DNA of 64,000 nt from Streptomyces sp. NBC_01591 (GTDB lineage Bacteria > Actinomycetota > Actinomycetes > Streptomycetales > Streptomycetaceae): NCBI RefSeq assembly GCF_035918155.1, contig NZ_CP109327.1, positions 496,001 through 560,000 on the forward strand, written 5' to 3'. Both the position numbers and the translations under genes were made by a program. Of the stretch, positions 23,881 through 61,721 are shown in pieces. Below the pieces are notes generated by a model that saw only the letters and a program-made list of their open reading frames with translations, was not told where the DNA came from and did no database searches. How positions within the stretch are numbered: the first letter of the stretch is position 1; each line of letters starts with the position of its first letter.

Positions 23881-24876
23881 ATGCGGACCTCTTTGGGTAT
23901 CGACTCCGTTGCACGGAGTGTGTACATCTCGATGGTCGACCGGCCCGGCGCGGAGGTGGCCGAGCTGGCCGCGCAACTGAAGGAGACCGAGGAAACGGTC
24001 CGGGGCGGGCTGGAGCGGCTGTCCGCCCTGCTGCTCGTCGTTCCGGGGGACTCCGCCAGCGGCTGGCGGCCGATCGATCCGGAGGTCGGACTGGCAGCGA
24101 TGCTCACCCGGCAGCAGGAGGAATTAGCCCGCCACCGGCTCCAGGTGGAGGGCAGCCGACTGGAGGTGACGCGGCTGCTGTCGGAGCGCGGGCGCGGCGG
24201 CCGGGAGAGCGTTCCGGACGTCAAGTGGCTGGCCGGCGCGGACGCCGTGTGGCGGCACATCACCTCTCTCGCCGATGAGTGCGCGAACGAATGGCTGACC
24301 GTCGGACCGGTCGAGCGGCCGGACGCGGCGGCCTTCGAGGCCGGCCACTCGCTGGACGAAATCCTGCGGCGACGCGGAACGCCCGCTCGCGCCATCGTGC
24401 TGGAGAGCGTCCGCAACGACCCCGAGGCGACGGAGCGCCTGCGCCGGAACGAGGAGTGCGGCGGCGCCGTCCGCACCCTGCCGTCGCTGCCGGTGTGGAT
24501 GATCGTCTCCGACCGCAGGCACGCCGTCGTGCCGGTCACGAGCGGCCGCAGCGTGGTCGGCGCGATGGCGTGCGGCGTCGAGTCGGTCACGGAAGCCTTC
24601 GCGACCCTGTTCGCCCGGCTGTGGAAGGAAGCCCTGCCGCTCGCGGAGGCACGCCCCCGTACCAGCGGCAACCTCTCCCTCCAGGAGCAGCACGTGCTCC
24701 GGCTGTGGGCGCAAGGGCTCACGGACGCGGCGGCGGCCCGCCGGATGGACGTCTCACTGCGCACGGTGCGCCGGCTCTCGGAGAAGCTGACCGACCGGTT
24801 CGGTGCCCAGAGCCGGTTTCAGCTCGGCGCCCTCGCGCTCGCCAGCGGCGGCATCCGCGCCGAGGACATGGCCTGA
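23881..24876 (+). CDS. LuxR-type cluster regulator with TTA codon
   Basis: This 331-residue regulator has three parts. The N-terminal part (about 1-75) looks like a TrmB/helix-turn-helix-like region (AELAAQLKETEETVRGGLERLSALLLV). A middle part has a helical coil (LTRQQEELARHRLQVEGSRLEVTRLL) and an alpha/beta region similar to phospholipase-D-like TrmB sensor domains. The C-terminal LuxR DNA-binding domain (about 263-325) has LSLQEQHVLRLWAQGLTDAAAARRMDVSLRTVRRL. Codon 82 is TTA. It is convergent with the NRPS genes at the cluster edge and is the likely pathway-specific activator. This architecture is frequent in Streptomyces peptide clusters. Confidence 0.85.
   Translation: MRTSLGIDSVARSVYISMVDRPGAEVAELAAQLKETEETVRGGLERLSALLLVVPGDSASGWRPIDPEVGLAAMLTRQQEELARHRLQVEGSRLEVTRLLSERGRGGRESVPDVKWLAGADAVWRHITSLADECANEWLTVGPVERPDAAAFEAGHSLDEILRRRGTPARAIVLESVRNDPEATERLRRNEECGGAVRTLPSLPVWMIVSDRRHAVVPVTSGRSVVGAMACGVESVTEAFATLFARLWKEALPLAEARPRTSGNLSLQEQHVLRLWAQGLTDAAAARRMDVSLRTVRRLSEKLTDRFGAQSRFQLGALALASGGIRAEDMA
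24124..24126 (+). promoter_or_regulatory. TTA leucine codon (bldA control point)
   Basis: Leu82 of the LuxR-type regulator is encoded by TTA, in the codon series GAA TTA GCC. In Streptomyces TTA is read only by the bldA tRNA, which accumulates late in growth, so translation of this regulator is probably tied to development. Confidence 0.85.
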
Positions 24877-24906
24877 ACCGTCCCACCTGGCGTGACCGGG
24901 CCGTGA

Positions 24907-24938
24907 GGGGCCGGACCTCGTCGCCGAGGTCCGGCCCC
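24907..24938. terminator. Bidirectional terminator between regulator and NRPS
   Basis: A perfect 14-bp stem, GGGGCCGGACCTCG (24907-24920) and CGAGGTCCGGCCCC (24925-24938), has a TCGC loop. It lies between the convergent LuxR-type gene and the first NRPS gene. Confidence 0.8.
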
Positions 24939-24962
24939 TTCGTGGTGTGGCAACGGGTGCGG

Positions 24963-33824
<8,862 letters not shown>

Positions 33825-34200: not shown

Positions 34201-34671
34201 GTGTACCCGCATCGCCAGCCCCCGGACAGCCCGCACCACGCAGTCCTGACCACCATCGCCTCGGACTCACACACCTGGAACCTGCTCTTCCTGCAACTGC
34301 TGCTCGAGGAACAGGGCTGGGAGGTCACCAATCTCGGCGCGTGCGTCCCGGTCGGCGTCCTGATCGAGGAGGCCACGGCCCGTACGCCCGGCCTCATCGT
34401 CGTCAGCACGGTCAACGGACACGGCGCCGAGGAGGCCACGGGCCTGGCCCGCGCGGTGCGCGCCGTGCCGGCGCTGGCCAGGGTGCCGCTCGTCGTCGGA
34501 GGCAAGCTGAACACCTCGGGCACCATCGCCCCGGACGTCCACGCCTCGCTCATCGACGCCGGCTTCGACGCCGTCCTGACCGGCGCGAACGCCGTCCCCG
34601 GACTGCTCGCCCTGCTCGACACCCTGCCCGAGCACCGGCACGGAAGGCCCCATGCCGATGCCGTCCGCTGA
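34201..34671 (+). CDS. Methylaspartate (glutamate) mutase small subunit, B12-binding
   Basis: This 156-residue cobalamin-binding Rossmann protein starts at GTG 34201 with GAGAGGA upstream. The B12 His motif appears as TIASDSHTWN (DxH kept; the usual following Gly is replaced, as in secondary-metabolite homologues). It is followed by EEQGWEVTNLGACVP, LIVVSTVNGHG and VVGGKLNTSG, which wraps the nucleotide tail. With the large subunit it should rearrange L-glutamate to (2S,3S)-3-methylaspartate by adenosylcobalamin radical chemistry. It is the first gene of the precursor operon and overlaps the next by 20 nt, as expected for stoichiometric subunits. Confidence 0.88.
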   Translation: MYPHRQPPDSPHHAVLTTIASDSHTWNLLFLQLLLEEQGWEVTNLGACVPVGVLIEEATARTPGLIVVSTVNGHGAEEATGLARAVRAVPALARVPLVVGGKLNTSGTIAPDVHASLIDAGFDAVLTGANAVPGLLALLDTLPEHRHGRPHADAVR

Positions 34672-35941
34672 ACCCGCCCCCGCCGGCGGCGCCTTCCACC
34701 GCTTCATTGCCGACGCCGCCCGCACCGGCAGCCTCGTCGTGCAGCCCCGTATGGGCTTCGCCGACCCCGCCCGGATGCGCACCGGCCTGATCGCCACCCG
34801 TGCCGCCGACGCCACCACCGTCGGCACCCTCACCCTGGACAGCTTCACCCGCGTCGGCGATTACGCCGCCGCCGCCCGCGCCGTCGCCCAGGACCACCAC
34901 CTCAACGGCTATCCGCTGGTCAGCATGCCCATCGAGACCACCACCGGTCTCCTCGACGGCGTCCACGGCCCCGGTTTCCCCGTCCAGGTACGGCACGGCT
35001 CCGCACAGCCCGGCCGGATCGTCGAAGCCCTCATCGCCGCCGGACTCGACGCCACCGAGGGCGGCCCTGTCTCCTACTGCCTGCCCTACGGCCGCACCCC
35101 GCTGGCCACCTCGGTCCGCGCCTGGGCCGAAGCATGCCGCAGGCTCGCCGCACTGCGCGAGGCCGGCACCGAACCGCACCTGGAGACCTTCGGCGGCTGC
35201 ATGCTGGGCCAGCTCTGCCCGCCCTCCCTGCTCGTCGCCCTCTCCGTCCTGGAAGCCATGTTCTTCCGCCAGCACGGCCTGCGCAGCATCTCCCTCAGCT
35301 ACGCCCAGCAGACCAGCCGCGAACAGGACGAGGAGGCCGTCCACGCGCTGCGCGCCCTCGCCGCCGACCAACTCCCGGACACCTCCTGGCACGTGGTCGT
35401 CTACGCGTACATGGGCGTCTATCCGGAGACCTGGGACGGTGCGCTGCGGCTCGTGGCGGACGCCGCCCGGCTCGCCGTGCGCACCGGCGCCACCCGGCTC
35501 ATCGTCAAGACACCGGCGGAGTCGGCCCGCATCCCCTCCGTCGAGGAGAACGTCATCGCGCTGGAGACCGCCGCCGCTGCCGCCCGCACCACGCGGCCGG
35601 CCGCTCCGCCGCCGTCCACCGGCATCGAGGCGGAGGCCCGCTCCCTCGTCGAGGCCGTCCTGAACCTGCACGACGACCTCGGCCAGGCCCTGATCCGCGC
35701 CTTCGCCCACGGCTACCTCGACGTCCCCTTCTGCCTGCACCCCGACAACGCGGGGCGCACCCGCAGCTTCATCTCCGACCGCGGCCGGCTGGAGTGGTCC
35801 CGCACCGGGTCGCTCCCGCTCGGCCGGCCCACCGCCGCACAGCCGTCCCGGCGGCTGACCTCGTCCGGACTGCTGCAAGCGCTCAACCACGTCAAGAACC
35901 GCTACGACGACCCCGCCGCCCGCCTCGACAGGGCGAGCTGA
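34652..35941 (+). CDS. Methylaspartate (glutamate) mutase large subunit
   Basis: This 429-residue TIM-barrel subunit is the catalytic partner of the B12 protein. Family blocks are visible: QPRMGFADPARMRTGL, VGTLTLDSFTRVGDY, GYPLVSMPIETTTG, the RHGS and GGPVSYCLPYGRTPL substrate-binding region, SISLSYAQQTSREQDEEA, and IVKTPAESARIPS. Length is in the range of secondary-metabolism mutases, slightly under the fermentative 480. ATG 34652 has GGAAGG upstream. Together the pair supplies 3-methylaspartate, a known nonribosomal building block in acidic lipopeptides and related compounds. No separate reactivating factor is in the window. Confidence 0.88.
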   Translation: MPMPSAEPAPAGGAFHRFIADAARTGSLVVQPRMGFADPARMRTGLIATRAADATTVGTLTLDSFTRVGDYAAAARAVAQDHHLNGYPLVSMPIETTTGLLDGVHGPGFPVQVRHGSAQPGRIVEALIAAGLDATEGGPVSYCLPYGRTPLATSVRAWAEACRRLAALREAGTEPHLETFGGCMLGQLCPPSLLVALSVLEAMFFRQHGLRSISLSYAQQTSREQDEEAVHALRALAADQLPDTSWHVVVYAYMGVYPETWDGALRLVADAARLAVRTGATRLIVKTPAESARIPSVEENVIALETAAAAARTTRPAAPPPSTGIEAEARSLVEAVLNLHDDLGQALIRAFAHGYLDVPFCLHPDNAGRTRSFISDRGRLEWSRTGSLPLGRPTAAQPSRRLTSSGLLQALNHVKNRYDDPAARLDRAS

Positions 35942-36021: not shown

Positions 36022-37035
36022 ATGACACTTCAGACGGATCTCCCGTCGGCGCCCGAGGCCGCCGCGTTGCCCTCACCGTTGGACCACCTGCGCGACCCGC
36101 GCACCCACGCGGCCTTGCGCATCCAGCAGGCACTCATGGCCGGTGCCCGTTCCTTCCTGCGCTCCGACGGCGCCGTGGAGATGGCCCACCCGGTCATCGG
36201 CCCCGTCACCGACCCGGGCTCGCGCGGCGCCAAGCAGGTCGACGTCGACTACTACGGCCACCGCTACAAGCTGATGACCAGCGCCATCCTCTACAAGCAG
36301 GCATCGCTGCTGGCCTTCGACCGCATCTTCCTCATCGCGCCCAACGTCCGCCTCGAACCCGTCGAGACCAGCAGCACCCACCGCCACCTCACCGAGTTCC
36401 GGCAGATCGACGTCGAGTACGCGGGCGCCACCCGGGACGATGCCATGGGCGTCGCTGAGCGGCTGGTCCGCCACGCCGTGACCACCGTCGTCGACGGGTG
36501 CGGCGACGACCTCGCCGTCCTCGGCCGCGACCCCGACGCCCTGCGCCGCCGCGTGGCCCGGCCGTTCGCCCGCGTCCCGCACGGCGAGGTCGTCGACGGT
36601 CTGCGCCGCGACGGGTACCCGCAGGCCGCCGGCACCGAGATCGAGTGGGAGGCCGAGGAGCGCATCTCCCGCCAGGCCGACGCCCCGTTCTTCATCGTCG
36701 GCTACCCCAAGGGCTCCCGCGGCTTCTACGACAAGGAGAGCACGGCCGAGCCCGGCACCCTGCTCAACTTCGACCTCATCGCCCCCGAGGGCTGCGGCGA
36801 ACTGTGCAGCGGCAGCGAACGCGAGTACGACTACGCGGCCCTGGTCACCCGGATGCGCGAAACAGGCGAGAACCCCTCCAAGTACGCCTGGTACCTCGAC
36901 GTCGCCCGGCACGGCATCCCCAGCAGCGCCGGCTTCGGCATCGGCCTGGAGCGCCTGACCCGCTGGGTCACCGGCCTGGACTCCGTCTGGCGGACCACAG
37001 CCTTCCCGAAGATCGCGGGGGTCGTGTCGCCGTGA
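36022..37035 (+). CDS. AsnRS-like catalytic core protein (possible asparagine-forming ligase)
   Basis: This 337-residue class II synthetase core related to AsnRS/AspRS has no N-terminal OB-fold anticodon-binding domain. Motif 2 is PNVRLEP...HRHLTEFRQIDVEY with the ATP-contacting Arg110. Motif 3 is GFGIGLERL (304-312). Truncated paralogues of this kind in archaea (AsnA-type) amidate free aspartate using ATP and ammonia. Sitting after the 3-methylaspartate genes, it may amidate aspartate or 3-methylaspartate, which fits four Asn-type adenylation pockets. Alternatives are activation of an amino acid for another transfer, or a resistance role. The start ATG 36022 follows CAGGACAG, and its stop overlaps the next gene. 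Confidence 0.75.
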   Translation: MTLQTDLPSAPEAAALPSPLDHLRDPRTHAALRIQQALMAGARSFLRSDGAVEMAHPVIGPVTDPGSRGAKQVDVDYYGHRYKLMTSAILYKQASLLAFDRIFLIAPNVRLEPVETSSTHRHLTEFRQIDVEYAGATRDDAMGVAERLVRHAVTTVVDGCGDDLAVLGRDPDALRRRVARPFARVPHGEVVDGLRRDGYPQAAGTEIEWEAEERISRQADAPFFIVGYPKGSRGFYDKESTAEPGTLLNFDLIAPEGCGELCSGSEREYDYAALVTRMRETGENPSKYAWYLDVARHGIPSSAGFGIGLERLTRWVTGLDSVWRTTAFPKIAGVVSP

Positions 37036-38258
37036 CCCAGCTGGCTGCACCCGGCCTGCCCGAGGACACCGTCCGCGCCCGGGCCCGCGACGGCGCCGCC
37101 GCCGTCTTCCCGCCCCTGAACAGCTACGGCACCGCCGTCTTCGGCGCCGCCCCCGAATCCGCCGGCGACGAGATCGACGGACTGCGCCTGGCCCCGCCCG
37201 TCTTCATGCCGGGCCGCCTGGCCAAGCTCATCGACCTCGGCCGCGAACCCCTCTACTCCGATGTCCGCCTCGATACCGCCCTCGGCGGCTTCACGGCTCC
37301 GCTGCCGGTCTACCTGTCGGCTCTCGGCTCCACCCACGTCACCGGCATCAGCCTCGCCCTCAGCCGCCAGGCCGGACGGCTCGGCATCCCCATGGTCATC
37401 GGCGAGAACGTCGCCCCCATGAACGGCTTCCGCTCCAGCGGCGACGACCACCGCAAGGGCCTGCTGGAACGCGTCCAGGCGTACTGCGAGGAACTCCCCG
37501 ACGGCGTAGGCGGCATCTGCGTCCAGCAGAGCACCGAGGACGCCGACTCCGAGGTCTGGAACCAGGTCTACAGCGACCCCGCCGTCACCGGCCTCCTGGC
37601 CACCGGCCGCCTCGGCTTCGAACTCAAGGTCGGCCAGGGTGCCAAGCCCGGCCTCGGCGGCCTCACCATGATCAGCGAAGCGGTCGCGGCCGACCTCGCC
37701 GGACAGTACGCCGTCGAACGGCTGGGCCCCAGCGCCTCTTCGATCCTGCGCTGCGCGAGCCCGGGCACCTTCACCGACGAGATCTTCCGCCGGCAGATCC
37801 AGCTCATGCGCAACAACTACCCACGCGCCCGCTGCTGGGTGAAGCTCTTCCCCGGCCGCGACATCGGCCAAGCCGCCACCATCGCCTGGGACGCCGGCGC
37901 CGACGCCGTCGCCGTCGACGGTGCCGAGGGCGGCACCGGCTGGGCCCCGACCGGCTTCCTCGGCCACGTCGGACTGCCCCTCTCCGAATGCCTGCGCCGC
38001 GTCGACCCCGCCGGCCGCACCCTCCTCGCCAGCGGACGTGTCTGGGACGGCATCCGCGCCGTGAAACTGCTCGCCCTCGGCGCCCGCGCCGTCGGCCTCG
38101 GCCGCGCCGCACTGATCGCCGCCGACGAGGACCCCGAGCACGGCCTCGAACGCCTGCTGGACGCCATGGCACTGGAATTGCGCATGGCTGTCAGCGCACT
38201 GGGCCGCTACGCGGCGGAGGAGACCGGCCCCGAAGACCTTTGGGAGCCCCGGTCATGA
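37032..38258 (+). CDS. FMN-type glutamate synthase-like protein
   Basis: This 408-residue protein matches the central FMN/synthase barrel of GltB. The glutaminase domain and the C-terminal beta-helix are missing. Signatures are KVGQGAKPGLGG (2-oxoglutarate/FMN loop), ISEAVA, DAVAVDGAEGGTGWAP and LLASGRVWDGIRAVKLLALGARAVGLGRA (FMN phosphate-binding end of the barrel). An iron-sulfur Cys cluster is not evident. It could reductively aminate 2-oxoglutarate with ammonia, or oxidise/reduce another amino acid. Starts and stops overlap on both sides (GTG 37032, TGA 38258), so it belongs firmly to the operon. A role in glutamate recycling is my inference from the neighbouring Dap genes. Confidence 0.72.
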   Translation: MTQLAAPGLPEDTVRARARDGAAAVFPPLNSYGTAVFGAAPESAGDEIDGLRLAPPVFMPGRLAKLIDLGREPLYSDVRLDTALGGFTAPLPVYLSALGSTHVTGISLALSRQAGRLGIPMVIGENVAPMNGFRSSGDDHRKGLLERVQAYCEELPDGVGGICVQQSTEDADSEVWNQVYSDPAVTGLLATGRLGFELKVGQGAKPGLGGLTMISEAVAADLAGQYAVERLGPSASSILRCASPGTFTDEIFRRQIQLMRNNYPRARCWVKLFPGRDIGQAATIAWDAGADAVAVDGAEGGTGWAPTGFLGHVGLPLSECLRRVDPAGRTLLASGRVWDGIRAVKLLALGARAVGLGRAALIAADEDPEHGLERLLDAMALELRMAVSALGRYAAEETGPEDLWEPRS

Positions 38259-39202
38259 TCTACGAACACACCTACGAGCTGGTCACCGACGACCTCTTCG
38301 TCCTGCTGCCCCGGATGGTGCCCGGCTCGGACCTCTTCCTGAAGATCGAGGGCCTCAACCCGGCCGGCTCCGTCAAGCTGAAGACCGCGCTGAGCCTCAT
38401 CGAGGACGCCGAGCACCGCGGCGTCCTCACGCCGGGCGCCCGCGTCATCGAGTCCTCGTCCGGAAACCTCGGTATCGCCCTCAGCTCCATCTGCGCCACC
38501 AAGGGCTACCGCTTCACCTGCGTCGTCGACCCGAACACCAACGCCACCAGCATCGATCACATGCGTGCCCTGGGCGCCGAGGTGGTCGTCGTCGACACCG
38601 TCGACGCCAACGGCGGCTTCCTCCAGTCCCGCATCGCCCACATCCGGCGCCACATCGAAGCGGACCCGACCGTGGTCTGGCTCAACCAGTACGCCAACCC
38701 GGCCAACCCGCGCGCCCATTACGAACAGACCGCGCGCACCCTGCTCAAGACGGTCCAGCATCTCGACTACCTGTTCATCGGCGTCGGCTCCACCGGCACG
38801 TTCGTCGGCTGCGCGCAATACCTGCGCGAGTTCTCGCCGCACACCCGGATCGTCGCCGTCGACGCCCTCGGCTCCGTCGTCTTCGGCGCCGCACCCGGCC
38901 CGCGACGCATCCCCGGGCTGGGCGCCAGCCGCATCCCCGAACTGTTCGAACCCGGCCTCGCCGACGACGTGGTACTGGTAGCCGAGGAGGACGCCATACG
39001 CGAGTGCCGGCTGCTCGCCCGCACCCACGGCCTGCTCACCGGCGGCTCCACCGGCTCGGTCCTGGCCGCCGTCCGCCGCCGCGCCGACACCATCCCAGCC
39101 GGCTCCCGCATCGCCGCGATCTCTCCCGACCTCGGCGAGCGCTACCTCGGCACGGTCTACAACAACGACTGGGTCGAGCGGAACTTCGGCGTCCCCACCT
39201 GA
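38255..39202 (+). CDS. sbnA: 2,3-diaminopropionate biosynthesis, SbnA-like PLP enzyme
   Basis: This 315-residue beta-family PLP enzyme belongs to the cysteine synthase/SbnA group. The PLP lysine lies in LNPAGSVKLKTAL, the substrate loop is SSSGNLGIAL, and the phosphate-binding Gly/Ser loop is GVGSTGTFVG. SbnA joins O-phospho-L-serine with L-glutamate to form ACEGA, an N-linked amino acid adduct. VioB- and CmnB-like enzymes in tuberactinomycin clusters are relatives. The SbnB-like gene directly downstream makes a housekeeping cysteine synthase unlikely. The start overlaps the preceding stop (ATGA). Confidence 0.86.
   Translation: MIYEHTYELVTDDLFVLLPRMVPGSDLFLKIEGLNPAGSVKLKTALSLIEDAEHRGVLTPGARVIESSSGNLGIALSSICATKGYRFTCVVDPNTNATSIDHMRALGAEVVVVDTVDANGGFLQSRIAHIRRHIEADPTVVWLNQYANPANPRAHYEQTARTLLKTVQHLDYLFIGVGSTGTFVGCAQYLREFSPHTRIVAVDALGSVVFGAAPGPRRIPGLGASRIPELFEPGLADDVVLVAEEDAIRECRLLARTHGLLTGGSTGSVLAAVRRRADTIPAGSRIAAISPDLGERYLGTVYNNDWVERNFGVPT

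Positions 39203-44686: not shown

Positions 44687-44690
<4 letters not shown>
40701..44690 (-). CDS. Terminal NRPS module C-A-T-TE
   Basis: This is a 1329-residue last-module synthetase. The C domain (about 5-435) starts NVEDVYGLSPLQFGMLYHSL and has HHILLDGWS, the D-acyl-accepting (DCL) style, consistent with the epimerase ending the preceding protein. The A domain (about 455-955) has pocket D-L-T-K-V-G-E-V-A, Asn/Asp-type. T has LGGQSISSV. The thioesterase (about 1070-1310) has the nucleophile Ser1140 in GWSTGA and a C-terminal GRHMEM His; it would release the product by hydrolysis or cyclisation. The start overlaps the upstream NRPS stop (ATGA), and the N-terminal 20 residues look like a communication-mediating acceptor. 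Its A domain DNA is nearly identical to two others in the cluster. Confidence 0.95.
41668..43388 (-). repeat. Near-identical A-domain repeat, copy 1
   Basis: This 1.72-kb segment of the terminal module (end of carrier back through the A domain to its N-terminus) is almost base-for-base the same as 49446-51166; the one difference I noted changes Glu to Gly (PAPEHSP/PAPGHSP). It is also the same as 46245-47965 except for two short islands. Confidence 0.9.
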
Positions 44691-52564
<7,874 letters not shown>

Positions 52565-52611: not shown

Positions 52612-55600
52612 TCAGGAAAGCTGTTCCTGCACGTCGAACAATTCGATGAGCTGTTGCTTGATGCCGATGACGGTCGACGACTGAAAAAGGCGTCGCAGGC
52701 CGATGCGTACTCCGGTCACCGACTCGACCTGATTGACGAGTTGGAGGGCGAGCAGGGAGTGCCCGCCGACGTCGAAGAACCTCTCGTGGACCCCTACGCG
52801 TTCGACGCCGAGCACGGCGGCCATGATCCCGGCGATCTCCGCCTCGATCTCGTCCCGTGGCGCGGTGTATCCGGCCGTGCTGTCGCCGTCGTTCCCGGGG
52901 GCCGGCAGTGCCGCGTGGTCGACCTTGCCGTTCCGGTTGAGCGGCAGTTCCGGCAGGATCGCGAACGCGGACGGCATCATGGCGCGAGGCAGGCGTTCGG
53001 CGGCCCACTCGCGCAGCGCGCCGACGTCCACCGTGGCGTCGGGCGCGGGCACGCAGTAGGCGACCAGCCGCTTGTCGCCGGGAGTGTCCTCCCGGACCAC
53101 CACCGCGCAGGCCCCGACCGCGCCGTGGGTGAGCAGCGTCGCCTCGATCTCGCCGAGTTCGACCCGGACGCCGCGCAGTTTCACCTGACGGTCGATCCGT
53201 CCCAGCAGGTCCAGTTCTCCGTCCGCGGTGAACCGGCCGAGATCGCCCGTGCGGTACATCCGGCCGCCGCGGAACGGGTCGGCGACGAAACGCTCGGCAG
53301 TGAGGTCGGGCCGCTGGTGGTAACCGCGCCCGACGCTGTCGCCACCGAGGTACACCTCGCCCAGCACACCCGCAGGCACGGGACGGCGGTCCGGGTCCAG
53401 GACGTACACGGTCTGGTTGACCATGGGACGGCCCGCGAAGACCGGTCCGGCCGGGTCCGTGCGCGAGGCCCGCCAGTACGTCGTGTCCACCGAGACCTCG
53501 GTGGCGCCGTACAGGTTGACGAGGTCACCGGGGAAGCTCTCGGTGAACCGGCTCACCAGCGTCGGCTGGAGCGGCTCGCCACTGGCGAAGGCGTACCGCA
53601 GGTGCGTGCAGTCCACGGGCCGTACCCGGGAGACGAACAAGTCCAGCAGGCTCGGCACGAAGTGCAGGCCGACCACGCGGTGGGCGCGCATCAGGCGGGA
53701 CACCTCGGCCATGTCGAGCCGGTCGGAGCCCGGCACCAGCACGACCGTGGCACCCTGCCACAGGGGCCAGAAGATCTCGTACGCCGACACGTCGAAGGAC
53801 AGCGGCGTGGCCTGGAGGAAGCCCTCGCCCGGAGCGATCGGGAACGCGTGCTGCATGCCGGCCAGGTAGTTGACCACTCCGCGGTGTTCGATGCGGACGC
53901 CCTTCGGGCGGCCCGTGGAGCCGCTGGTGTAGATCAGGTAGCACAGGTCGCCGGGGTCCGCGACGGGTTCCGGCGCGTCCGTGGGCAGAGTGTCCGGCAG
54001 GTCGGCGGGGCGGTCCACGGCCAGCAGGTCCGGACCGTCCGGCAGCAGGGCGGCGTGCGCGATGTCGGTGACGATCAGCGGCGCGCCGGAGTCCGTCACC
54101 AGGTACGCCAGCCGTTCCTCCGGGTGCTCCGGGTCGAGCGGGACGTACGCGGCACCGGCCTTCAGGATGCCGAGCAACGTCCACACCATGGCGGGCGAGC
54201 GTTCCAGGCAGACGCCCACGGGTACGTCCGGACCGATGCCCGGCACAGCGCGCAGCCGGTGGGCCAGACGGTTGGCCCGCTCATCGAGCTGACGGTACGT
54301 CAGACTGTCCGTGCCGCAGACGACTGCGACCGCGTCCGGGTCCTGTGCCGCCCGCTGCTCGAACAACCGGTGCAGTGTCGCTGCCGGGACGGGCGCGGCG
54401 GTGTCATTCCATTCGGTGAGGACACGGTGCCGCTCCCCCGCGTCCAGCATCTCCACCTCGGACAGCGCGCTGTGCGGGCGAATCGTGGCCGCGGCCAGCA
54501 GGTTGGTGAAGTGGCCGGCCAGGCGGCGCGCAGTGTCCTCGGTGAAGAGGTCGTCCGCGTAGACCACGGCGCCGTCCAGCGTGCCGTCCGCCGCCTCCGC
54601 GAGGTACATCGACAGGTCGAACTTGGCGTCCCGGACCGGGGGCTCGACGGGCTCCGCCGTCAGGCCCGGCAGGTTCCAGGCGTCCGCGCCCGGCATGTTC
54701 TGCAACGCGAACAGGGTCTGGAACAGGGGGTTGCGGGACAGGTCGCGGTCGGGGGCGAGTTCCTCCACGAGGCGTTCGAAGGGCAGGTCCTGGTGGTCGT
54801 AGGCACCCAGCGCGGCGTCCTTGACCCGGGCCAGCAGTTCGGCGAACGTCGGGTCGCCGGACAGGTCGGTGCGCAGGACGAGAGTATTGACGAAGAAACC
54901 GATCAGATCCTCCGTCTCGGCACGGTTGCGACCGGCGACCGGGCTGCCGACCGCGATGTCCCGCTGCCCGCTGTAGCGGGCCAGCAGCAGCTGGAAGACG
55001 GCCAGCAGGGTCATGAACAGGCTCGCGCCGCTCTCGGCGGACACCGCGCGGGCACGGGCGGCGACCTCGGCGGGCACCGAGAACCGGACCACCTCGCCCC
55101 GCCCGCCGCGCTCCGCCGGCCGCGCGTGGTCGGTCGGCAGCTCCAGCGGCTCCATTCCGCTCAACCGACCGCGCCAGTAGGAGAGTTGCCGATACAGCGG
55201 CGCACCGGACAGCCAGGCGCGCTGCCACACCGCGTAGTCGGCGTACTGCACGGGCAGCGGATCCGGTCCGGGCGTGCCGGAGCGGTCCGAGAGGGCTTCT
55301 GCGTACCGCGCGGACAGCTCGCGCACCAGCACGCCCACCGACCAGCCGTCGAAGGCGATGTGGTGCACGGTGACCGCCAGGACGTACTCCTCGTCGGCCA
55401 GCCGTACCAGCAGCGCGCGCAGCATCGGTCCGGTGCCGAGGTCCACCGGCCGCAGTCCGTCCTCGCGCAGCACCTCCGCCAGGGCGTCCTCGCGGGCAGC
55501 CGTGTCACCCATCCGGCGCAGGTCCCGTACCAGCATCCGCACCGGCCGCGCCGGGTCGATCAGCTGCGCCGGGGAGCCCGCCGCGTCCGTACCGAACCGG

Positions 55601-58600
55601 GTGCGCAGGATCTCGTGGCGCGCCACCACCGCGGTGAACGCGGCGTTCAGGGCGTCAGTGTCCAGGGGGCCGTGGATGCGGAAGGCGAAGGGCAGCAGGT
55701 ATTCGGCCCGACCCGGCTCCAACTGGTCCAGAAACCAAAGCCGTTGCTGCGCAAAGCTGAGTGGCGGCGGAGTGCTGTGGCGCGGCGCCGCCGGGATGCG
55801 GCCGGCCTCCGTGCCATCCATCTCCGTCACGGCCGCGGCCAACAGCGCCGAGGTCGGCGCGCTGAACAGCGTGCGCACCGGCACATCGGCGCCCAACCGC
55901 CGGCGCAGCCGTGACACGACCTGGGTGGCCAGCAGCGAATGCCCGCCCAGCGCGAAGAAGTCGTCGTGCACGCCGATCCGGTCGACGCCCAGCACCTCGG
56001 ACCACACCTCGGTCACCGTGCGTTCGATGTCCGTGCGCGGCTCGGTGTACGCGGCGCCCAGTCCGGACCGGTCGGAGGCAGGCGCGGGAAGTGCCCGGCG
56101 GTCGGTCTTGCCGTTCGGGGTGAGCGGGATGCGCTCCAGCGGCACGAACGCCGTGGGCACCATGTAGTCCGGCAGGTCGCGCTGGAGGTGGGTGCGCAGC
56201 GCGCTCGCGTCGAGGGGGCCCACGGGCACCACGTACGCCACCAGCCTCTGCACACCGGGAACGTCCTCGCGCAGCACGACGGTGGCGCCGGTGATCGTGG
56301 GGTGGGCGAGCAACGCCGTCTCGATCTCGCCCAGTTCGATGCGGTAGCCGCGCAGCTTGACCTGGTTGTCGGAGCGGCCCACGAACTCCAGCCGCCCGTC
56401 CGGCAGCCACCGGGCGAGGTCACCGGTGCGGTAGACGCGCCGCGGCGTGCCGTCCACGTCCACGACGGTGAACTTCTCGCCGGTCAGCTCGGGCCGGTGC
56501 AGATAGCCGCGGGCCAGCCCGGGGCAGCCGATCCACATCTCGCCCGGCACGCCCACCGGCACCGGCCGGCCTTGGCGGTCGACCACGAACACCTTCGCGT
56601 TGGCGACCGGCCGGCCGATCGGCACCCGGTCGACGGGACCGGTGATCTTGGCGGTCGTCGCCTCCTGCGCGGCCTCCGTGGGGCCGTAACCGTTGACCAG
56701 AGGCACCGCGCAGTGCCGGAACCACTGCCTGACCTGTTCCCGCTGGAGCGCCTCGCCGCCGAGCCGGACCAGTCGCAGCTGCGGGCCCAGCGCGTCCGGC
56801 CCGTCCAGGTCGGCGGCCAGTGCCCCGAACGCCGACGGGGTGAGCCATGCCACCGTGACCCGGTGCTCGCGCAGCGCCGCCGCCAGCCGGCCCGGGTCCC
56901 AGGTGTCGTCGCGCAGCACCAGACCCGCCCCGGAGACGAGCGGGGCGAACATCTGACCCACCGACGAGTCGAACGCGATCGAGGCGAACTGCAGGACCCG
57001 GTCCTCGGGCGTGAGCCCCAGCTCACGGCGTGTCTCCCGCATCCGCGCACGCAGCGCGCCGTGGGTGATCTGCACGCCCTTGGGGCGGCCGGTGGAACCA
57101 CTGGTGTAGATCACGTAGGCCACGTCGTCCGGGCCGGCCTGCGCCACCGGACCGGCGGAGGCGGTGTGCGGCCGCTCTGGCCAGTACCCGTCCAGCAGCA
57201 GCGTCGGCGTGTGGGCGGGCAGGCGGCCGGTGTGCGCGGACTGGGTGACGATCAGTGGGGCGCCGCTGTCCTCGACCATGTAGGCGAGCCGGTCCGTGGG
57301 GTACGCCGGGTCCAGCGGCACGTATGCCGCCCCCGACTTGTGGATGCCGAGCAGCGCGCACACCATGTCCGTTCCGCGGTCCAGGCAGACCGCGACCAGA
57401 GTGCCCGGCCCGGCACCGCGCTCGCGCAGCCGGCCGGCGATCCACTCGGCCCGCTCGTCGAGCTGACGGTAGGTCAGCCGGTCGGTACCGCAGGTCACGG
57501 CCGGCGCGTCGGGGTGGCGAGCGGCCTGCTCCTCGATCAGCCGGGTCACGGTCACCGTGTCCGGAGCGTCGGTGTCGGCCCCGTTCCACTCGCCGAGGAT
57601 CGTCCGGCGCTCGGCGGCGGTCAGCATCGGGAGCTCGGACAGCCGGGCGTCCGGGGTGGCGCAGGCGGCAGCCAGCAGCGTCTCGAAGTGCCCGGCGAGC
57701 CGCACCATCGTGGCTTCGTCGAACAGGTCGGTGGAGTACACGACGGTGCCGTCCAGAGCGCCGTCGGCGGCCTCGGTGGCGTAGAAGGTGAAGTCGAACT
57801 TGGAGTCCTGGGCGGACACGTCGAGCTGCCGCACGGTCAGGCCCGGCAGTTCCCAAGACCGGCTGTCGGGGGTGTTCTGGAGGACGAACATCGTCTGGAA
57901 CAGCGGATTGCGCGACAGGTCCCGCTGCGGGGCCAGCTCCTCCACCAAGCGTTCGAAGGGCAGGTCCTGGTGGTCGTAGGCGCCGAGCGCGGTGTCCTTG
58001 ACCCGGGCCAGCAGTTCGGCGAACGTCGGGTCGCCGGACAGGTCGGTGCGCATGACCAGCGTGTTCACGAAGAAGCCGATCACGTTCTCGATCTCGGCCC
58101 GGTTGCGGCCCGCGATCGGGGTGCCTACCGCGATGTCCTCCTGGCCGCTGTAGCGCGACAGCACCACCTGGAAGACCGCCAGCAGGGTCATGAACAGGCT
58201 CGCGCCGGTCTCCTGGGAGAGCCTGCGGGCGCCGTCGGTGGTCTCCGTCGGCACGCGGAAGGTGAGCATGGCACCGTTGCCGCTGCGCCGCGCCGGGCGT
58301 CGGCGGTCGGTGGGCAGCTCCAGCGGTTCGGTGCCGGCCAGTCGGGCGCGCCAGTAGTCCAGTTGCTCCGCCAGCACCTCGCCGGTGAACCACTGGCGCT
58401 GCCAGACCGCGAAGTCGGTGTACTGGAGGGGAGGTTCGGACAGGCCGGCGGCCATGCCCGCGGCCCGCGCGCCGTACAGCGCGGTCAGCTCCCGGGACAG
58501 CACCCCCGCCGACCAGCCGTCGAAGGCGATGTGATGCACCGTCATATAAAGCAGGTGTTCCTCGTCGGCCAGCCGGATCAGCAGCGCACGCACCATCGGT

Positions 58601-59355
58601 CCGGTGCCGAGGTCCATCGGGCGGAAGCCCTCGGTGTCCACGATCGCGGCGGCCGCCTCCTCGCGCGCGTCCTGTCCGGCGACGGACCGCAGGTCGTGAA
58701 CGGCGAGCGGCAGCGGCCGGGGTGGGTCGACGACCTGGCCGGGGTTGCCGTCCGCGTCGCTGGCGAAACGGGTGCGCAGCACCTCGTGCCGGCTCACCAG
58801 CTCCGACAGCGACGCGCGCAGCGCCGGGACGTCCAGCGGGCCGCGGATGCGCAGTCCCATGGGGATCAGGTACTCGGCCCGGCCGGGCTCCAACTGGTCC
58901 AGGAACCACAGTCGGTGCTGCGCGAACGACAGCGGCAGCGGACGTCCGTGCCGGGGCGCGCGGGGGATGACCGGAGCGTCGTCCGGAGCCCCGGCCGCCA
59001 CCAGGGCGTCCATGGCGTCCGTCGCGCCCTCGACATCGAAGTCGGCCGACTCGAACAGCCGGTGGGTCCGCATCAGAGCTTCCTCCGCGAGGAACGACGC
59101 CACCGCCCGCACCGTCAACGGCTCCGGCAGTGTTTCCGTGCCGAATTCCGAACCGAATTCCTCCGCGATCCGGCGTGCCATTTCCGCCGCCTGCGGGCGG
59201 GTTCCGCCGAGCCGGAAGAATTCGTCCTCCGACCCGGTCACCTCGGCGCCGAGTACCGCATTCCACACTGTTGCGATGCGGGCTTCCGCAGGAGAGAAAC
59301 CGCCCTGCTCGGCCCTCTGGCCGGAGGCCGCGGCCATCATCGGCTTCGTCGTCAT
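52612..59355 (-). CDS. NRPS, two modules: degenerate carrier-C-A-T-C-A-T
   Basis: This is a 2247-residue synthetase from ATG 59355. Residues about 20-92 look like a carrier domain (ARIATVWNAVLGAEV, DEFFRLGGTRPQAAEM), but LGGHS is LGGTR, so the Ser that carries phosphopantetheine is Arg; it may only dock. C1 (VHHIAFDGWSAG) is followed by A1 (about 590-1085; pocket about D-S-G-W-R-G-G-Q-E, matching no code I know) and T1. C2 (VHHIAFDGWSVG) is followed by A2 (about 1645-2135; pocket D-V-Y-H-F-S-L-V-D, close to the Ser code DVWHFSLVD, so Ser or 2,3-diaminopropionate) and T2 (VGGHSLLAL). It ends without TE or E and lies 47 nt before the next NRPS gene. It heads the second NRPS operon behind a tandem-repeat promoter. 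Confidence 0.93.
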   Translation of the reverse strand: MTTKPMMAAASGQRAEQGGFSPAEARIATVWNAVLGAEVTGSEDEFFRLGGTRPQAAEMARRIAEEFGSEFGTETLPEPLTVRAVASFLAEEALMRTHRLFESADFDVEGATDAMDALVAAGAPDDAPVIPRAPRHGRPLPLSFAQHRLWFLDQLEPGRAEYLIPMGLRIRGPLDVPALRASLSELVSRHEVLRTRFASDADGNPGQVVDPPRPLPLAVHDLRSVAGQDAREEAAAAIVDTEGFRPMDLGTGPMVRALLIRLADEEHLLYMTVHHIAFDGWSAGVLSRELTALYGARAAGMAAGLSEPPLQYTDFAVWQRQWFTGEVLAEQLDYWRARLAGTEPLELPTDRRRPARRSGNGAMLTFRVPTETTDGARRLSQETGASLFMTLLAVFQVVLSRYSGQEDIAVGTPIAGRNRAEIENVIGFFVNTLVMRTDLSGDPTFAELLARVKDTALGAYDHQDLPFERLVEELAPQRDLSRNPLFQTMFVLQNTPDSRSWELPGLTVRQLDVSAQDSKFDFTFYATEAADGALDGTVVYSTDLFDEATMVRLAGHFETLLAAACATPDARLSELPMLTAAERRTILGEWNGADTDAPDTVTVTRLIEEQAARHPDAPAVTCGTDRLTYRQLDERAEWIAGRLRERGAGPGTLVAVCLDRGTDMVCALLGIHKSGAAYVPLDPAYPTDRLAYMVEDSGAPLIVTQSAHTGRLPAHTPTLLLDGYWPERPHTASAGPVAQAGPDDVAYVIYTSGSTGRPKGVQITHGALRARMRETRRELGLTPEDRVLQFASIAFDSSVGQMFAPLVSGAGLVLRDDTWDPGRLAAALREHRVTVAWLTPSAFGALAADLDGPDALGPQLRLVRLGGEALQREQVRQWFRHCAVPLVNGYGPTEAAQEATTAKITGPVDRVPIGRPVANAKVFVVDRQGRPVPVGVPGEMWIGCPGLARGYLHRPELTGEKFTVVDVDGTPRRVYRTGDLARWLPDGRLEFVGRSDNQVKLRGYRIELGEIETALLAHPTITGATVVLREDVPGVQRLVAYVVPVGPLDASALRTHLQRDLPDYMVPTAFVPLERIPLTPNGKTDRRALPAPASDRSGLGAAYTEPRTDIERTVTEVWSEVLGVDRIGVHDDFFALGGHSLLATQVVSRLRRRLGADVPVRTLFSAPTSALLAAAVTEMDGTEAGRIPAAPRHSTPPPLSFAQQRLWFLDQLEPGRAEYLLPFAFRIHGPLDTDALNAAFTAVVARHEILRTRFGTDAAGSPAQLIDPARPVRMLVRDLRRMGDTAAREDALAEVLREDGLRPVDLGTGPMLRALLVRLADEEYVLAVTVHHIAFDGWSVGVLVRELSARYAEALSDRSGTPGPDPLPVQYADYAVWQRAWLSGAPLYRQLSYWRGRLSGMEPLELPTDHARPAERGGRGEVVRFSVPAEVAARARAVSAESGASLFMTLLAVFQLLLARYSGQRDIAVGSPVAGRNRAETEDLIGFFVNTLVLRTDLSGDPTFAELLARVKDAALGAYDHQDLPFERLVEELAPDRDLSRNPLFQTLFALQNMPGADAWNLPGLTAEPVEPPVRDAKFDLSMYLAEAADGTLDGAVVYADDLFTEDTARRLAGHFTNLLAAATIRPHSALSEVEMLDAGERHRVLTEWNDTAAPVPAATLHRLFEQRAAQDPDAVAVVCGTDSLTYRQLDERANRLAHRLRAVPGIGPDVPVGVCLERSPAMVWTLLGILKAGAAYVPLDPEHPEERLAYLVTDSGAPLIVTDIAHAALLPDGPDLLAVDRPADLPDTLPTDAPEPVADPGDLCYLIYTSGSTGRPKGVRIEHRGVVNYLAGMQHAFPIAPGEGFLQATPLSFDVSAYEIFWPLWQGATVVLVPGSDRLDMAEVSRLMRAHRVVGLHFVPSLLDLFVSRVRPVDCTHLRYAFASGEPLQPTLVSRFTESFPGDLVNLYGATEVSVDTTYWRASRTDPAGPVFAGRPMVNQTVYVLDPDRRPVPAGVLGEVYLGGDSVGRGYHQRPDLTAERFVADPFRGGRMYRTGDLGRFTADGELDLLGRIDRQVKLRGVRVELGEIEATLLTHGAVGACAVVVREDTPGDKRLVAYCVPAPDATVDVGALREWAAERLPRAMMPSAFAILPELPLNRNGKVDHAALPAPGNDGDSTAGYTAPRDEIEAEIAGIMAAVLGVERVGVHERFFDVGGHSLLALQLVNQVESVTGVRIGLRRLFQSSTVIGIKQQLIELFDVQEQLS

Positions 59356-59447
59356 GTGTCCACCAGTTCCTCGTCATCGACCGTTTGCGAAAACCCTCGG
59401 AAACTCAGCCGAATCCGATGCTCGCAGAGCGATCTGGAGGAGATAAC

Positions 59448-59533
59448 TGGTCACTTCTGCCCGTCGGACGTGGTCACTTCTGCCCGTCGGGCGTGGGCAC
59501 TTACGCCGGTCCGGGCGTGAACACTGCGCCCGG
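59448..59533. repeat. Tandem 23-24-bp repeats in NRPS promoter
   Basis: Units begin TGGTCACTTCTGCCC (59448), TGGTCACTTCTGCCC (59471), TGGGCACTTACGCCG (59494) and TGAACACTGCGCCCG (59518, partial). They lie about 93-178 nt upstream of the NRPS ATG at 59355. The spacing is about two helical turns, which suits side-by-side binding of a regulator. Related copies occur at 34016-34063. The other DNA between 59356 and 59649 shows no gene. Confidence 0.65.
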
Positions 59534-59649
59534 CCAGCGGAGTTCCGCTCACCGTGGCGGAGATCTGCCGTCCGGGCAGAGGCGGGGACGTGGAACCGGC
59601 GGCCGACGGGCGGTCCACCGCCCGGCCTGTGCCGGTCCCGTACCGCCGC

Positions 59650-61101
59650 TTACGCGGCTTCCTTGGCCGCCGCTTCCCCGGGAACCGAAGCGGTACCGGC
59701 CATGCTCCCGTTCCCGTGTTCGGTGCCGACAGGGCTCGCGTCGGACACCGTCCGCTTGCGCATGCCCGCCCACTCCCGGTTCAGGGCCGGCACACCGATG
59801 GCAACGAGGTAGAGCCCGCCCACGATCCACAGCGCGCCCGAGGTGCCCGCCACCGTCACCAGTCCCGCGCCCAGCAGCCCGCCGAAGGGGATGCCCGCCC
59901 AGGTGACGGCCTGAGCCAGCGTCTTGACCCGTCCCAGCAGCGGAGTGGGGATCAGTTCGTACGTCACGGCCCCCACGATCGGATTGACGAAGCCTGAGCC
60001 CAGGCCACCCACCGCCAGCACCACCAGCACCAGCCACAGGGGCGCCCCCGTGGCCATGGCCACGAAGCGCGGGACGCCGCCCAGCGTGAAGCCGATCAGA
60101 TAGACGGCACGCCGGGGCAGCCGCTCGGCCACTCCCGCGGCCACGAGCGCGGCGACGATCGATGTCGCGGCGAAGACGCTGACCACCAGGCCAATGGCTC
60201 CCGCACCGTTGCCCGTCTCCTTCGCCCAGACCGGCAGCAGCACCGACATGAACGCCTGGTCGAGCAGGTTGGTCACGGCGAGCATGCACACGATGGACCG
60301 CAGCAGCTTGGCGTCGCGCAGGAACACGGCGCCCTGACGCAGCCGCGAGAGATAGCCCTCGGCCTCCTCGACCGGCGTCTCGTGCGGCTCGGGCACCGGG
60401 TCGCTGAGGGTGGTGGAGACGATCAGCGCCGACACACCGAACAGGCAGGCGGTGATCCACAGGGCGTAAAGGCTGCCGAAGGAGGCGACGACCACACCGG
60501 CGACGGCCGGTCCGATGGTCGTCGCGGTCCGTTCGACCGCCGCCGACAGACCGGTCCCCCGTTCCAGCGGCACCCGGGCCGCGCGGGTGGCCGCGGGCAC
60601 GAAGAGCCCCTTTGCCCCGTTGGCCGGGCCGTCCGCCGCGCCGACCACGGCCAGCAGCCCCAGCAGCAGGCCGAAGGACAGGTGTCCCGTCAGGTAGAGC
60701 AACGGGGCGGTGGCCGTCGCGATGGTGGAAGCCAGGTCGCCGGCCACGCTGATGCGCTTGGGGCCGACCCGGTCGATGATCGGCCCCGCCAGCGCCTGGG
60801 CCACCACGTAGGGGACTATCTGACAGAAAGCGACCAGACCCGTCTTGCCGACGCTGCCGGTCGTCGTCAGGACGAACCAGGGCAGGGCGATCGAGAGCAC
60901 CCGATTGGCCGACAGGGACGCCGCGTTGGCCGACAGCATGCCGACCAGTCCGCGCAGGACCCGGGGCCCGTCGTCCGGGGCGTCCGAGGCGTCCGAGGCG
61001 TCCGAGGCGTCCGAGGCGTCCGAGGCGTCCGAGGCGTCCGAGGATGGTGTGCGTGTGCCACTGTCCGCCGCTTGCTGGGCGGCCGCGTGCCGAGAGGTCA
61101 T
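59650..61101 (-). CDS. MFS efflux transporter
   Basis: This 483-residue major facilitator of the drug-efflux/enterobactin-exporter (MFS_3) type has about 12 helices. Visible landmarks are VGPKRISVAGDL (loop 2-3 signature region), AVERTATTIGPAVAG and GFTLGGVPRFVAMATG. The N-terminal cytoplasmic tail holds seven Ser-Asp-Ala repeats coded by a 9-bp tandem repeat. The C-terminal tail is Ala/Glu-rich. The ATG at 61101 lies 5 nt after the ArsR-type regulator stop, so the two form an operon. It is the only transporter in the cluster and probably exports the peptide or protects the producer. Confidence 0.88.
   Translation of the reverse strand: MTSRHAAAQQAADSGTRTPSSDASDASDASDASDASDASDAPDDGPRVLRGLVGMLSANAASLSANRVLSIALPWFVLTTTGSVGKTGLVAFCQIVPYVVAQALAGPIIDRVGPKRISVAGDLASTIATATAPLLYLTGHLSFGLLLGLLAVVGAADGPANGAKGLFVPAATRAARVPLERGTGLSAAVERTATTIGPAVAGVVVASFGSLYALWITACLFGVSALIVSTTLSDPVPEPHETPVEEAEGYLSRLRQGAVFLRDAKLLRSIVCMLAVTNLLDQAFMSVLLPVWAKETGNGAGAIGLVVSVFAATSIVAALVAAGVAERLPRRAVYLIGFTLGGVPRFVAMATGAPLWLVLVVLAVGGLGSGFVNPIVGAVTYELIPTPLLGRVKTLAQAVTWAGIPFGGLLGAGLVTVAGTSGALWIVGGLYLVAIGVPALNREWAGMRKRTVSDASPVGTEHGNGSMAGTASVPGEAAAKEAA
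60982..61044 (-). repeat. 9-bp tandem repeat (Ser-Asp-Ala) in MFS gene
   Basis: Seven units of GTCCGAGGC, the last imperfect, encode (Ser-Asp-Ala)n near residue 20-41 of the transporter. A 9-bp unit keeps the frame when copies are gained or lost, so tail length may vary between strains. Confidence 0.85.
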
Positions 61102-61106
61102 CTTTC

Positions 61107-61721
61107 TCACTCCGAGTCGGTGGGGTGGGAGACGTGCCGGTCTGCGCTGGTGGGGAACAACTGGAACTGGAAGGCGACTCGCGCCGCGCCCTCGGGCAGC
61201 GGCGAACCTGCCGGTTCGGGCGAGGAGTTGCGTCGGCGGAGCAGTCGGTGGATCTCCGCCGACAGCTCTTCGGCCTCGGCCGGGGTGAGCGTGAGCACGT
61301 AGTCGCCGAAGTCCTGGGCGTCGCGCCACTCGGGCGACAGCGAGGTGGTCGCGTCGATGGCGGTCGTCATCGCGTCGGACCAGACCCGGCCGAGCGCCTG
61401 CAAGTAGGCGATGCCGAGACCGTCATCGCCCGCCAGCACCGAATCGTCCGGTACGACCGTGTTGACGTGCGCCGCCTGCCACCAGCGCTCACGACGGCTG
61501 CCCTGGGACGACGCCTCGACGATGAAGCCGTACTCGGCGAGCTGGCGCAGGTGATAGCTGGTCGCGCCGGTGTTCTGGTTCAGCCGCCGGGCGAGCGTGG
61601 TGGCCGTGGCCGGCCCCTCCGTCCGCAGGACCGTCAGCATCCGCACCCGCAGCGGATGTGCGACACCCCGCAGGTTACGAGCGGTCAGTTGCACTTGGGA
61701 GGGCTGCTCAGGAGGTTCCAT
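61107..61721 (-). CDS. ArsR-type winged-helix regulator
   Basis: This is a 204-residue regulator. The N-terminal winged helix is clear: NLRGVAHPLRVRMLTVLRTEG, TATTLARRLNQNTGATSYHLRQLAEYGFI, then the wing SSQGSRRERWWQAA. The C-terminal part (about 90-204) is helical and of the kind seen in Streptomyces ArsR-like proteins paired with MFS pumps. There is no CxC metal site, so metal sensing is unlikely. ATG 61721 is chosen; an in-frame TTG lies at 61742. It is co-transcribed with the transporter and preceded by 14-bp repeats, which suggests autoregulation. Confidence 0.85.
   Translation of the reverse strand: MEPPEQPSQVQLTARNLRGVAHPLRVRMLTVLRTEGPATATTLARRLNQNTGATSYHLRQLAEYGFIVEASSQGSRRERWWQAAHVNTVVPDDSVLAGDDGLGIAYLQALGRVWSDAMTTAIDATTSLSPEWRDAQDFGDYVLTLTPAEAEELSAEIHRLLRRRNSSPEPAGSPLPEGAARVAFQFQLFPTSADRHVSHPTDSE

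Follow-up and report, generated by a model that had tools for sequence, protein, structure and literature searches.

The question raised by the 64-kb stretch of Streptomyces sp. NBC_01591 analysed here (the window; G000:C1:496001-560000, in a genome of 10.25 Mb) is which peptide is built by the nonribosomal peptide synthetase (NRPS) cluster spanning 23.9-61.7 kb, and which amino acids are delivered to it by the plus-strand operon lying among its synthetase genes. The explanation we favour, with a probability of roughly 0.55 as a whole, is an octapeptide line of four NRPS proteins, D-A-B-C, supplied with 3-methylasparagine (MeAsn) and 2,3-diaminopropionate (Dap). Genes were called by a codon-usage script, domains were assigned by Pfam, and protein families were judged against NCBIfam curated cut-offs. 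The genes on which the argument turns are the following (C, condensation; A, adenylation; T, thiolation; E, epimerization; TE, thioesterase; AsnRS, asparaginyl-tRNA synthetase; FMN, flavin mononucleotide; aa, amino acids).

24963..33824, minus strand: NRPS-D, 2953 aa, (truncated C)-A-T-C-A-T-C-A-T (Pfam, script-read codes)
34201..34671, plus strand: MutS-like B12-binding subunit of glutamate mutase (below the NCBIfam curated cut-off)
34658..35941, plus strand: MutE-like catalytic subunit (Pfam; six glutamate-site residues kept)
36022..37035, plus strand: AsnA, AsnRS-core asparagine synthetase of PRK06462 type (NF005052, 411.7 bits vs 368; PDB matches)
37032..38258, plus strand: GltB-like FMN TIM-barrel protein, 408 aa (Pfam Glu_synthase and FMN_dh)
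38255..39202, plus strand: SbnA, first enzyme of Dap synthesis (TIGR03945, 404 bits vs 349.95)
39228..40235, plus strand: SbnB, second enzyme of Dap synthesis (TIGR03944, 390.6 bits vs 326.9)
40701..44690, minus strand: NRPS-C, 1329 aa, C-A-T-TE, code DLTKVGEVA (Pfam; TE motif GWSTG)
44687..52564, minus strand: NRPS-B, 2625 aa, C-A-T-C-A-T-E, code DLTKVGEVA twice (Pfam, codes)
52612..59355, minus strand: NRPS-A, 2247 aa, (inactive T-like)-C-A-T-C-A-T, codes DSGWRGGQE and DVYHFSLVD

A preliminary description of this DNA had counted eight A domains, a single E and a single TE over four NRPS proteins, and this is borne out by Pfam: the four long minus-strand open reading frames (ORFs) contain C, A and T domains, with 3+1+2+2 A domains, eight in all, over NRPS-D, -C, -B and -A. 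The TE lies in 40701-44690, and the third condensation-type domain of 44687-52564 is C-terminal, after the last T, in an epimerase-like position. With its C-A-T modules and single TE, the system is a modular type I NRPS. The earlier inventory is thus sound as far as it goes, yet it had missed the truncated first C domain, the inactive T-like stretch, the three nearly identical A domains and the occurrence of the cluster in other genomes.

The first ~220 residues of NRPS-D cover just positions 198-280 and 392-455 of the Condensation model, its second half; no HHxxxDG motif is found in the first 400 aa of NRPS-D, either in the window or in Streptantibioticus, and the Stackebrandtia counterpart has no C domain ahead of its first A. 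Given the lack of a usable first C domain, NRPS-D is probably the initiator, and the peptide probably has a free amino end. NRPS-A opens with a T-like stretch that lacks the serine (FFRLGGTRP; FFVLGGND in Streptantibioticus) and is inactive. The truncated C in D, the E in B and the TE in C together suggest the protein order D-A-B-C, and the C domain of NRPS-C, owing to its place after the E domain, would be of the D-accepting type.

The script-read codes are DLTKVGEVG for D1, DAWFLGNVV for D2, DAWFLGNVL for D3, DSGWRGGQE for A1, DVYHFSLVD for A2, and DLTKVGEVA for B1, B2 and C1 alike. These agree with the order Asx-X-X-X-(Dap/Ser)-Asx-D-Asx-Asx that had been read by eye (Asx, Asn or Asp). The Asx class stands; the pockets, however, read as Asn-type (K278, E322) and not as Asp. 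D1 appears Asn-type, B1, B2 and C1 appear Asn-type with A331, and no Asp-type pocket (H322) is present among the window's eight A domains. We assume here that E322 marks an Asn-type and H322 an Asp-type pocket, and we take DLTKVGEVA to be one residue (A331) off the Asn code. The D2 and D3 pockets look Leu-like.

The operon had been described as a glutamate mutase, an AsnRS-like core, a GltB-like core, SbnA and SbnB, and the Pfam and NCBIfam assignments of the plus-strand genes are the same, with AsnA, SbnA and SbnB scoring above their curated cut-offs. In MutE, residues R31, R65, R112, E134, Y140 and Y144 match R66, R100, R149, E171, Y177 and Y181 of Clostridium cochlearium GlmE (6/6), positions which we take to be the substrate residues (the arginine claw and E/Y). 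Of the cobalamin motif DxHxxG, MutS has the D and the H, with N instead of G. The 337-aa AsnA aligns solely to the catalytic part of AsnRS, has no tRNA-binding domain, and matches AsnRS and archaeal asparagine synthetase A (AS-A) in the PDB. It shares the AsnRS-derived core with the archaeal-type enzyme (PRK06462), and differs in lying beside a glutamate mutase; its amidation substrate is probably methylaspartate.

In the proposed pathway, MutS/MutE would convert glutamate to (2S,3S)-3-methylaspartate, and AsnA would adenylate its beta-carboxylate and amidate it to 3-methylasparagine, which the DLTKVGEVA domains would load. The GltB-like protein would partner AsnA, either supplying ammonia from glutamate or editing the methylasparagine. 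SbnA/SbnB would make the Dap loaded by the DVYHFSLVD domain, NRPS-D would start on Asn without an acyl cap, and the TE would release Asn-Leu-Leu-X-Dap-MeAsn-D-MeAsn-MeAsn. In mass, a MeAsn residue equals Gln (128.0586). The 3-methylaspartate supply proposed earlier is probably one step short, given AsnA and the Asn-type pockets.

A search with the GltB-like protein, with scoring limited to the 7997 candidates that had the most words in common with it, returned at least 1327 proteins, 120 of them listed. A contig scan with the same protein gave 217 relatives, and the best 80 of the 217 form the loci set, in which presence means identity over 35%. Within the stretches of these 80 loci, AsnA is present in 80, MutE in 74, MutS in 72, and SbnA and SbnB in 20 each; of the six loci whose stretch shows no MutE, three encode it at another place in the genome. 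AsnA and the GltB-like gene are adjacent and on the same strand in 92/93 loci with both tblastn matches, as counted over 95 loci including the window's own and short ones. In a separate survey of 199 genomes of the window's genus, the GltB-like protein is found in 28 and a close AsnA (at least 56% identity) in exactly the same 28; distant AsnA relatives (31-36%) are found without it. MutE is present in 81 genomes, distantly in 8 of these (best E worse than 1e-50), and occurs in 27/28 genomes with the GltB-like protein vs 54/171 others (Fisher p=2.7e-11, uncorrected for relatedness). The sole GltB-like genome without MutE, G152, is a 480-contig draft. This co-occurrence and adjacency suggest that AsnA and the GltB-like protein act together, in almost every case alongside a glutamate mutase; the mutase itself is often present without the two. 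Since AsnA accompanies the GltB-like protein in 28/28 genomes and the Asx pockets are Asn-type, 3-methylasparagine is the better guess for the monomer made by the four-gene MutS-MutE-AsnA-GltB cassette, and we prefer it to 3-methylaspartate with moderate confidence.

The cluster is not strain-specific. Its nearest named relative among the matches is in Streptomyces atratus OK807, with 98-100% identity for the cassette proteins, SbnA, SbnB and part of NRPS-D, and the cassette, SbnA/SbnB and NRPS-D relatives occur together in 13 other Streptomyces loci at 77-98% identity, a recurrence that argues against a chance grouping. The family accounts for 19 of the 80 loci: 15 (L016-L029, L032) with cassette, SbnA/SbnB and an NRPS-D relative (57-98%), three (L030, L031, L046) with a compact variant, and L047 (Stackebrandtia) with another. 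The reading covers part of the cluster for most of the 15, and the whole of it, assembled from overlapping stretches, for five more distant clusters. In Streptantibioticus the four NRPS proteins are the same, with the codes DLTKVGEVG, DVWYHADVI, DAWFMGVVL / DSGWRGGQE, DVYHFSLVD / DAWFLGNVV, DLTKVGEVA / DLTKVGEVA. Actinomadura, Sphaerisporangium and Actinophytocola present DVYHFSLVD, DLTKVGEVA, a module without A core, E, and DLTKVGEVA-TE, with a separate A domain in Actinomadura (DGRSLSHIT) and in Sphaerisporangium (DARLLAHIT). Stackebrandtia has the cassette, without SbnA/SbnB and without DVYHFSLVD. Because the NRPS pockets of the compact versions are mainly these two, DLTKVGEVA would take the cassette product and DVYHFSLVD would take Dap, an assignment reached by elimination over few clusters. 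The Dap supply proposed earlier agrees with both SbnA and SbnB exceeding their cut-offs, and DVYHFSLVD is found in 5/5 fully read clusters with SbnA/SbnB (the window included) and in 0/1 without (Stackebrandtia); hence the A2 domain is the most likely one to load Dap.

Glutamate mutases also occur in other settings. Vicenistatin-type macrolactam clusters (VinH/VinI, VinN) have a MutS/MutE-type glutamate mutase, and 40 such loci were fetched with MutE and without AsnA/GltB-like in the stretch, unlike the window, which has both; 22/40 show DYYPTTQR[VI], a domain we presume to be VinN-like, and 0/40 an Asn-type code. That the window's monomer is 3-methylaspartate itself, with AsnA and the GltB-like protein serving something else, finds precedent in VinN, which binds 3-methylaspartate (PMC11253843), and in friulimicin, where a glutamate mutase pair like the one found here supplies 3-methylaspartate (PMC9113097). 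We nevertheless consider it very doubtful, as all the window's Asx codes carry E322 and none H322, 54 of the 81 MutE genomes are without the GltB-like protein, and the 40 loci with MutE alone differ in code as described.

An Asn-type code is present in 19/19 family loci and in the window. Among the other 61 cassette loci, 46 have an A-domain match and 6/46 show an Asn-type or similar code (K/R at 278 and E322): DMPKVGEVA in L073, partial ---KIAEIG in L057, and DP[IV]RAEEVG in L054, L067, L071 and L090. The idea that Asn-type codes are confined to the window's family was dropped in view of these six. The code survey gives partial support to MeAsn as the general cassette product. Codes matching D-[AG]-L-[QHWY]-x-[GA]-[GA]-x-[FL] recur near the cassette in L011-L013, L034, L036, L042, L048, L050, L054, L056, L060, L065, L067, L071, L081, L082, L084, L088, L090 and L092-L094. 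This pocket, which we take to resemble that for beta-branched residues apart from a polar or aromatic 278, is a candidate binder of the cassette product outside the window's family.

Several results weigh against the explanation preferred here, an octapeptide line fed with MeAsn and Dap. In 40/46 non-family cassette loci with an A-domain match the stretch is without an Asn-type code, and many show pockets such as DALHMGGIF or DALQMAGGF, so that the cassette may make something other than plain MeAsn, or the pocket may vary by family. The NCBIfam equivalog cut-offs are reached neither by MutE (155.8 bits, cut-off 390.1) nor by MutS (49.7 bits, cut-off 110). No MutE match was found in the genomes of L039, L048 and L051, which keep AsnA-GltB, and on this account the idea that AsnA-GltB always comes with MutE was given up. 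The link between SbnA and DVYHFSLVD covers just five clusters with and one without, and the stretches of L034 and L042, two non-family loci with SbnA and SbnB, have no DVYHFSLVD (L042 has DIWQATCDD); moreover, DVYHFSLVD is presumably one residue off the usual Ser code, Y for W. The codes were read by a hidden Markov model from the eight domains and from motif-anchored columns, with no structure alignment to 1AMU, and the code-to-substrate rules are those we assume to hold. Finally, A1 (DSGWRGGQE) has no assigned substrate. This last point, together with A331 being the single difference of DLTKVGEVA from the Asn code as we take it, would suit a reading in which DLTKVGEVA loads plain Asn, with the product of the cassette going into a single position or to A1; given that the compact relatives have the cassette and no A1-type domain, we regard it as unlikely.

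The part played by the GltB-like protein bears on whether MeAsn is the end of the route. The protein shares the FMN domain and the K-x-x-QGAKPG-x-GG motif of the glutamate synthase large subunit (GltB), and the motif is kept across 18 aligned GltB-like sequences; at just 408 aa, however, it has the FMN barrel of glutamate synthase (GltS) without its Fe-S cysteines and, by Pfam, without a glutaminase domain. No invariant Cys or His is present in the 18-sequence alignment. The FMN domain presumably also resembles MgsC of N-methylglutamate synthase. An AlphaFold2 (AF2) model, used for fold alone, gives an FMN-type TIM barrel (mean pLDDT 77, pTM 0.84). Its closest folds among the matches listed are glycolate and lactate oxidases, flavocytochrome b2 and type-2 isopentenyl diphosphate (IPP) isomerase; no GltS chain is among the fold matches listed, which is not taken as exclusion. 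2-Hydroxyacid oxidases have a catalytic histidine, and identity with glycolate or lactate oxidase (GOX/LOX) was rejected given the lack of an invariant His, though the folds match. As no domain or cysteines are present to pass electrons on, the protein may be an oxidase, a redox-neutral isomerase or epimerase, or a releaser of ammonia from glutamate for AsnA.

AsnA and the GltB-like protein could make a further-modified residue, such as an epimer, a dehydro-amino acid, a beta-hydroxamate or a hydrazide. The pair is adjacent almost throughout, and ammonia-dependent amidation needs no FMN barrel; three of the 80 loci keep AsnA-GltB with no MutE found in the genome, and plain Asn needs no such genes; in addition, the cassette of L077 lies beside ATP-grasp, cupin and MetRS-like (methionyl-tRNA synthetase-like) genes. 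Yet the sequence names no second reaction, and the Asn-type pocket fits a plain amide, which leaves this a minority possibility of some weight. A similar chance, unlikely on the whole and still worth keeping in mind, is given to the product being an already described peptide, which would be compatible with the proposed chemistry. At least 15 of the 80 loci have the cassette, SbnA/SbnB and an NRPS-D relative, so a producer may have been studied; however, a literature search, with most subscription journals outside its reach, recognised no paper describing such a peptide.

Among known compounds, the friulimicin, amphomycin and laspartomycin peptides contain Dap or Dab (2,4-diaminobutyrate). Their assembly starts with a fatty-acyl ligase, an acyl carrier protein (ACP) and a lipid-accepting C domain, whereas the first C domain in the window is truncated. 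No free-standing AMP-binding or ACP gene, as in daptomycin/friulimicin-type lipopeptides, was found among the window genes scanned, a set without ORF 1-2022 and the small genes 274-555, 4578-4889, 6181-6363, 19830-20147 and 61955-62155. Lipopeptin A of Streptomyces sp. XY006 contains 'MeAsn', and the text consulted neither specifies whether its methyl group is on C3 or N nor gives a gene cluster for it; unlike the product predicted here, it is a lipopeptide, and its other residues include Thr, Asp, Ser, Glu, HyGln and MePhe (PMC10172682).

The three DLTKVGEVA domains are remarkably alike in DNA, as the repeat copies below indicate.

49792..51286, minus strand: A-domain repeat copy, module B1 (exact identity with B2 over 1494 bp)
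46591..48085, minus strand: A-domain repeat copy, module B2 (exact identity with B1 over 1494 bp)
41947..43388, minus strand: A-domain repeat copy, module C1 (exact identity with B1 over 1441 bp)

The B1, B2 and C1 A cores are 98.2-99.9% identical in DNA over 1500 bp, with a G+C content of 66% vs 72-75% for the other five A domains. An assembly artefact was considered and rejected: AcH 505 carries three diverged copies, 89-94% alike internally and 75-77% to the window copies, DHE7-1 carries three that are 92-97% alike internally and 82-84% identical with those of the window, and N-gaps interrupt the ADI95-17 scaffold at the repeat. In a tree of 25 A domains caught by motif search from six clusters, a subset of their A domains, the DLTKVGEVA domains from NRPS-B and NRPS-C cluster according to genome and not according to protein in 6/6 genomes (support 0.998-1.0). 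The DLTKVGEVA domains therefore evolve in concert. Compared with Streptantibioticus per 100 residues, NRPS-B is 56-82% identical except at residues 601-900, which form the B1 A core and reach 22-47%, and the Streptantibioticus pocket at the B1 position is Leu-like; hence, the Streptomyces lineage seems to have overwritten module B1 with an Asn-type domain copy.

The remaining genes of the cluster are two regulators and an exporter.

23932..24876, plus strand: LuxR-type regulator (Pfam GerE helix-turn-helix; relatives of 45-60% in five distant clusters)
59650..61101, minus strand: major facilitator superfamily (MFS) exporter (relatives in 4/5 distant clusters)
61107..61694, minus strand: ArsR-type regulator (also present in Streptantibioticus)

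The gene order is LuxR, NRPS-D (minus), MutS/MutE/AsnA/GltB-like/SbnA/SbnB (plus), NRPS-C, -B and -A (minus), MFS and ArsR. Among the genes scanned, the left neighbours are a SNF2 helicase, an amino-acid permease, a formamidase-like protein and an aldehyde dehydrogenase, and the right neighbour is a PIG-L deacetylase. Given flanking genes of other kinds on both sides, the cluster ends near the limits set for it earlier. No MbtH match was found within the window; four are present elsewhere in the same genome.

Other cassette loci differ in their surroundings. A second MutS-MutE-AsnA-GltB cassette lies in the same genome (L013-L015, G000:C1:1508000-1567999) beside another large NRPS cluster, with codes including DSYYWGVVF, DAYWWGGTF and DALQMAGGF. 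In Amycolatopsis orientalis (L077), the cassette is beside cupin, MetRS-like, ATP-grasp ligase and carbamoyltransferase genes, and the stretch has no NRPS match; we take the cupin and MetRS-like genes to be as in hydrazine-forming pathways. L052 has proteins with N-termini similar to the L077 neighbours, known from the N-termini alone. On the linear Streptomyces plasmid pSITFR-16a (L011), the cassette is accompanied by two NRPS genes and by genes for an ornithine carbamoyltransferase and a cysteine-synthase-like protein. MutE and AsnA lie within one open frame in L038, L052 (7701-10004), L088 and L095, which is not counted as fusion because high-GC DNA leaves long open frames; a GltB-SbnA frame in L021 was set aside, as the linking stretch resembles neither protein.

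Lanthipeptide-type (Lan) genes lie near the compact variants (L139-L144, L145-L147). In Actinomadura, Pfam finds next to the NRPS a LanM-type protein and a LanB-N protein that comes with free A and T domains, and a short peptide there ends in DTTCCGGSNSSISRTV. Sphaerisporangium has look-alike neighbours, seen by resemblance alone, and a peptide ending DTTCCGGETSISRIV, and in Actinophytocola the neighbours are a LanC-like protein and a peptide that ends in DTTCCPPQV. These loci are possibly mixed clusters of NRPS and ribosomally synthesized and post-translationally modified peptides (RiPPs).

Taken beyond the window, the cassette could be an uncharacterised and widespread actinobacterial route to a beta-methyl asparagine-type residue, in which the pared-down glutamate-synthase FMN barrel would channel ammonia from glutamate to the AsnRS-derived amide synthetase or, by hydrogen borrowing, epimerise or dehydrogenate the product, with the cognate A domains of the window's family held similar through repeated gene conversion. 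We propose this tentatively, at somewhat less than even odds. If true, the four-gene cassette marks 3-methylasparagine-type residues and can be searched for across actinobacterial peptide clusters, both NRPS and, apparently, ATP-grasp. It also poses a question of enzymology, namely the job of an FMN glutamate-synthase barrel beside an asparagine synthetase. Lastly, concerted evolution that seems to overwrite module specificity is a natural case of use to A-domain swapping.

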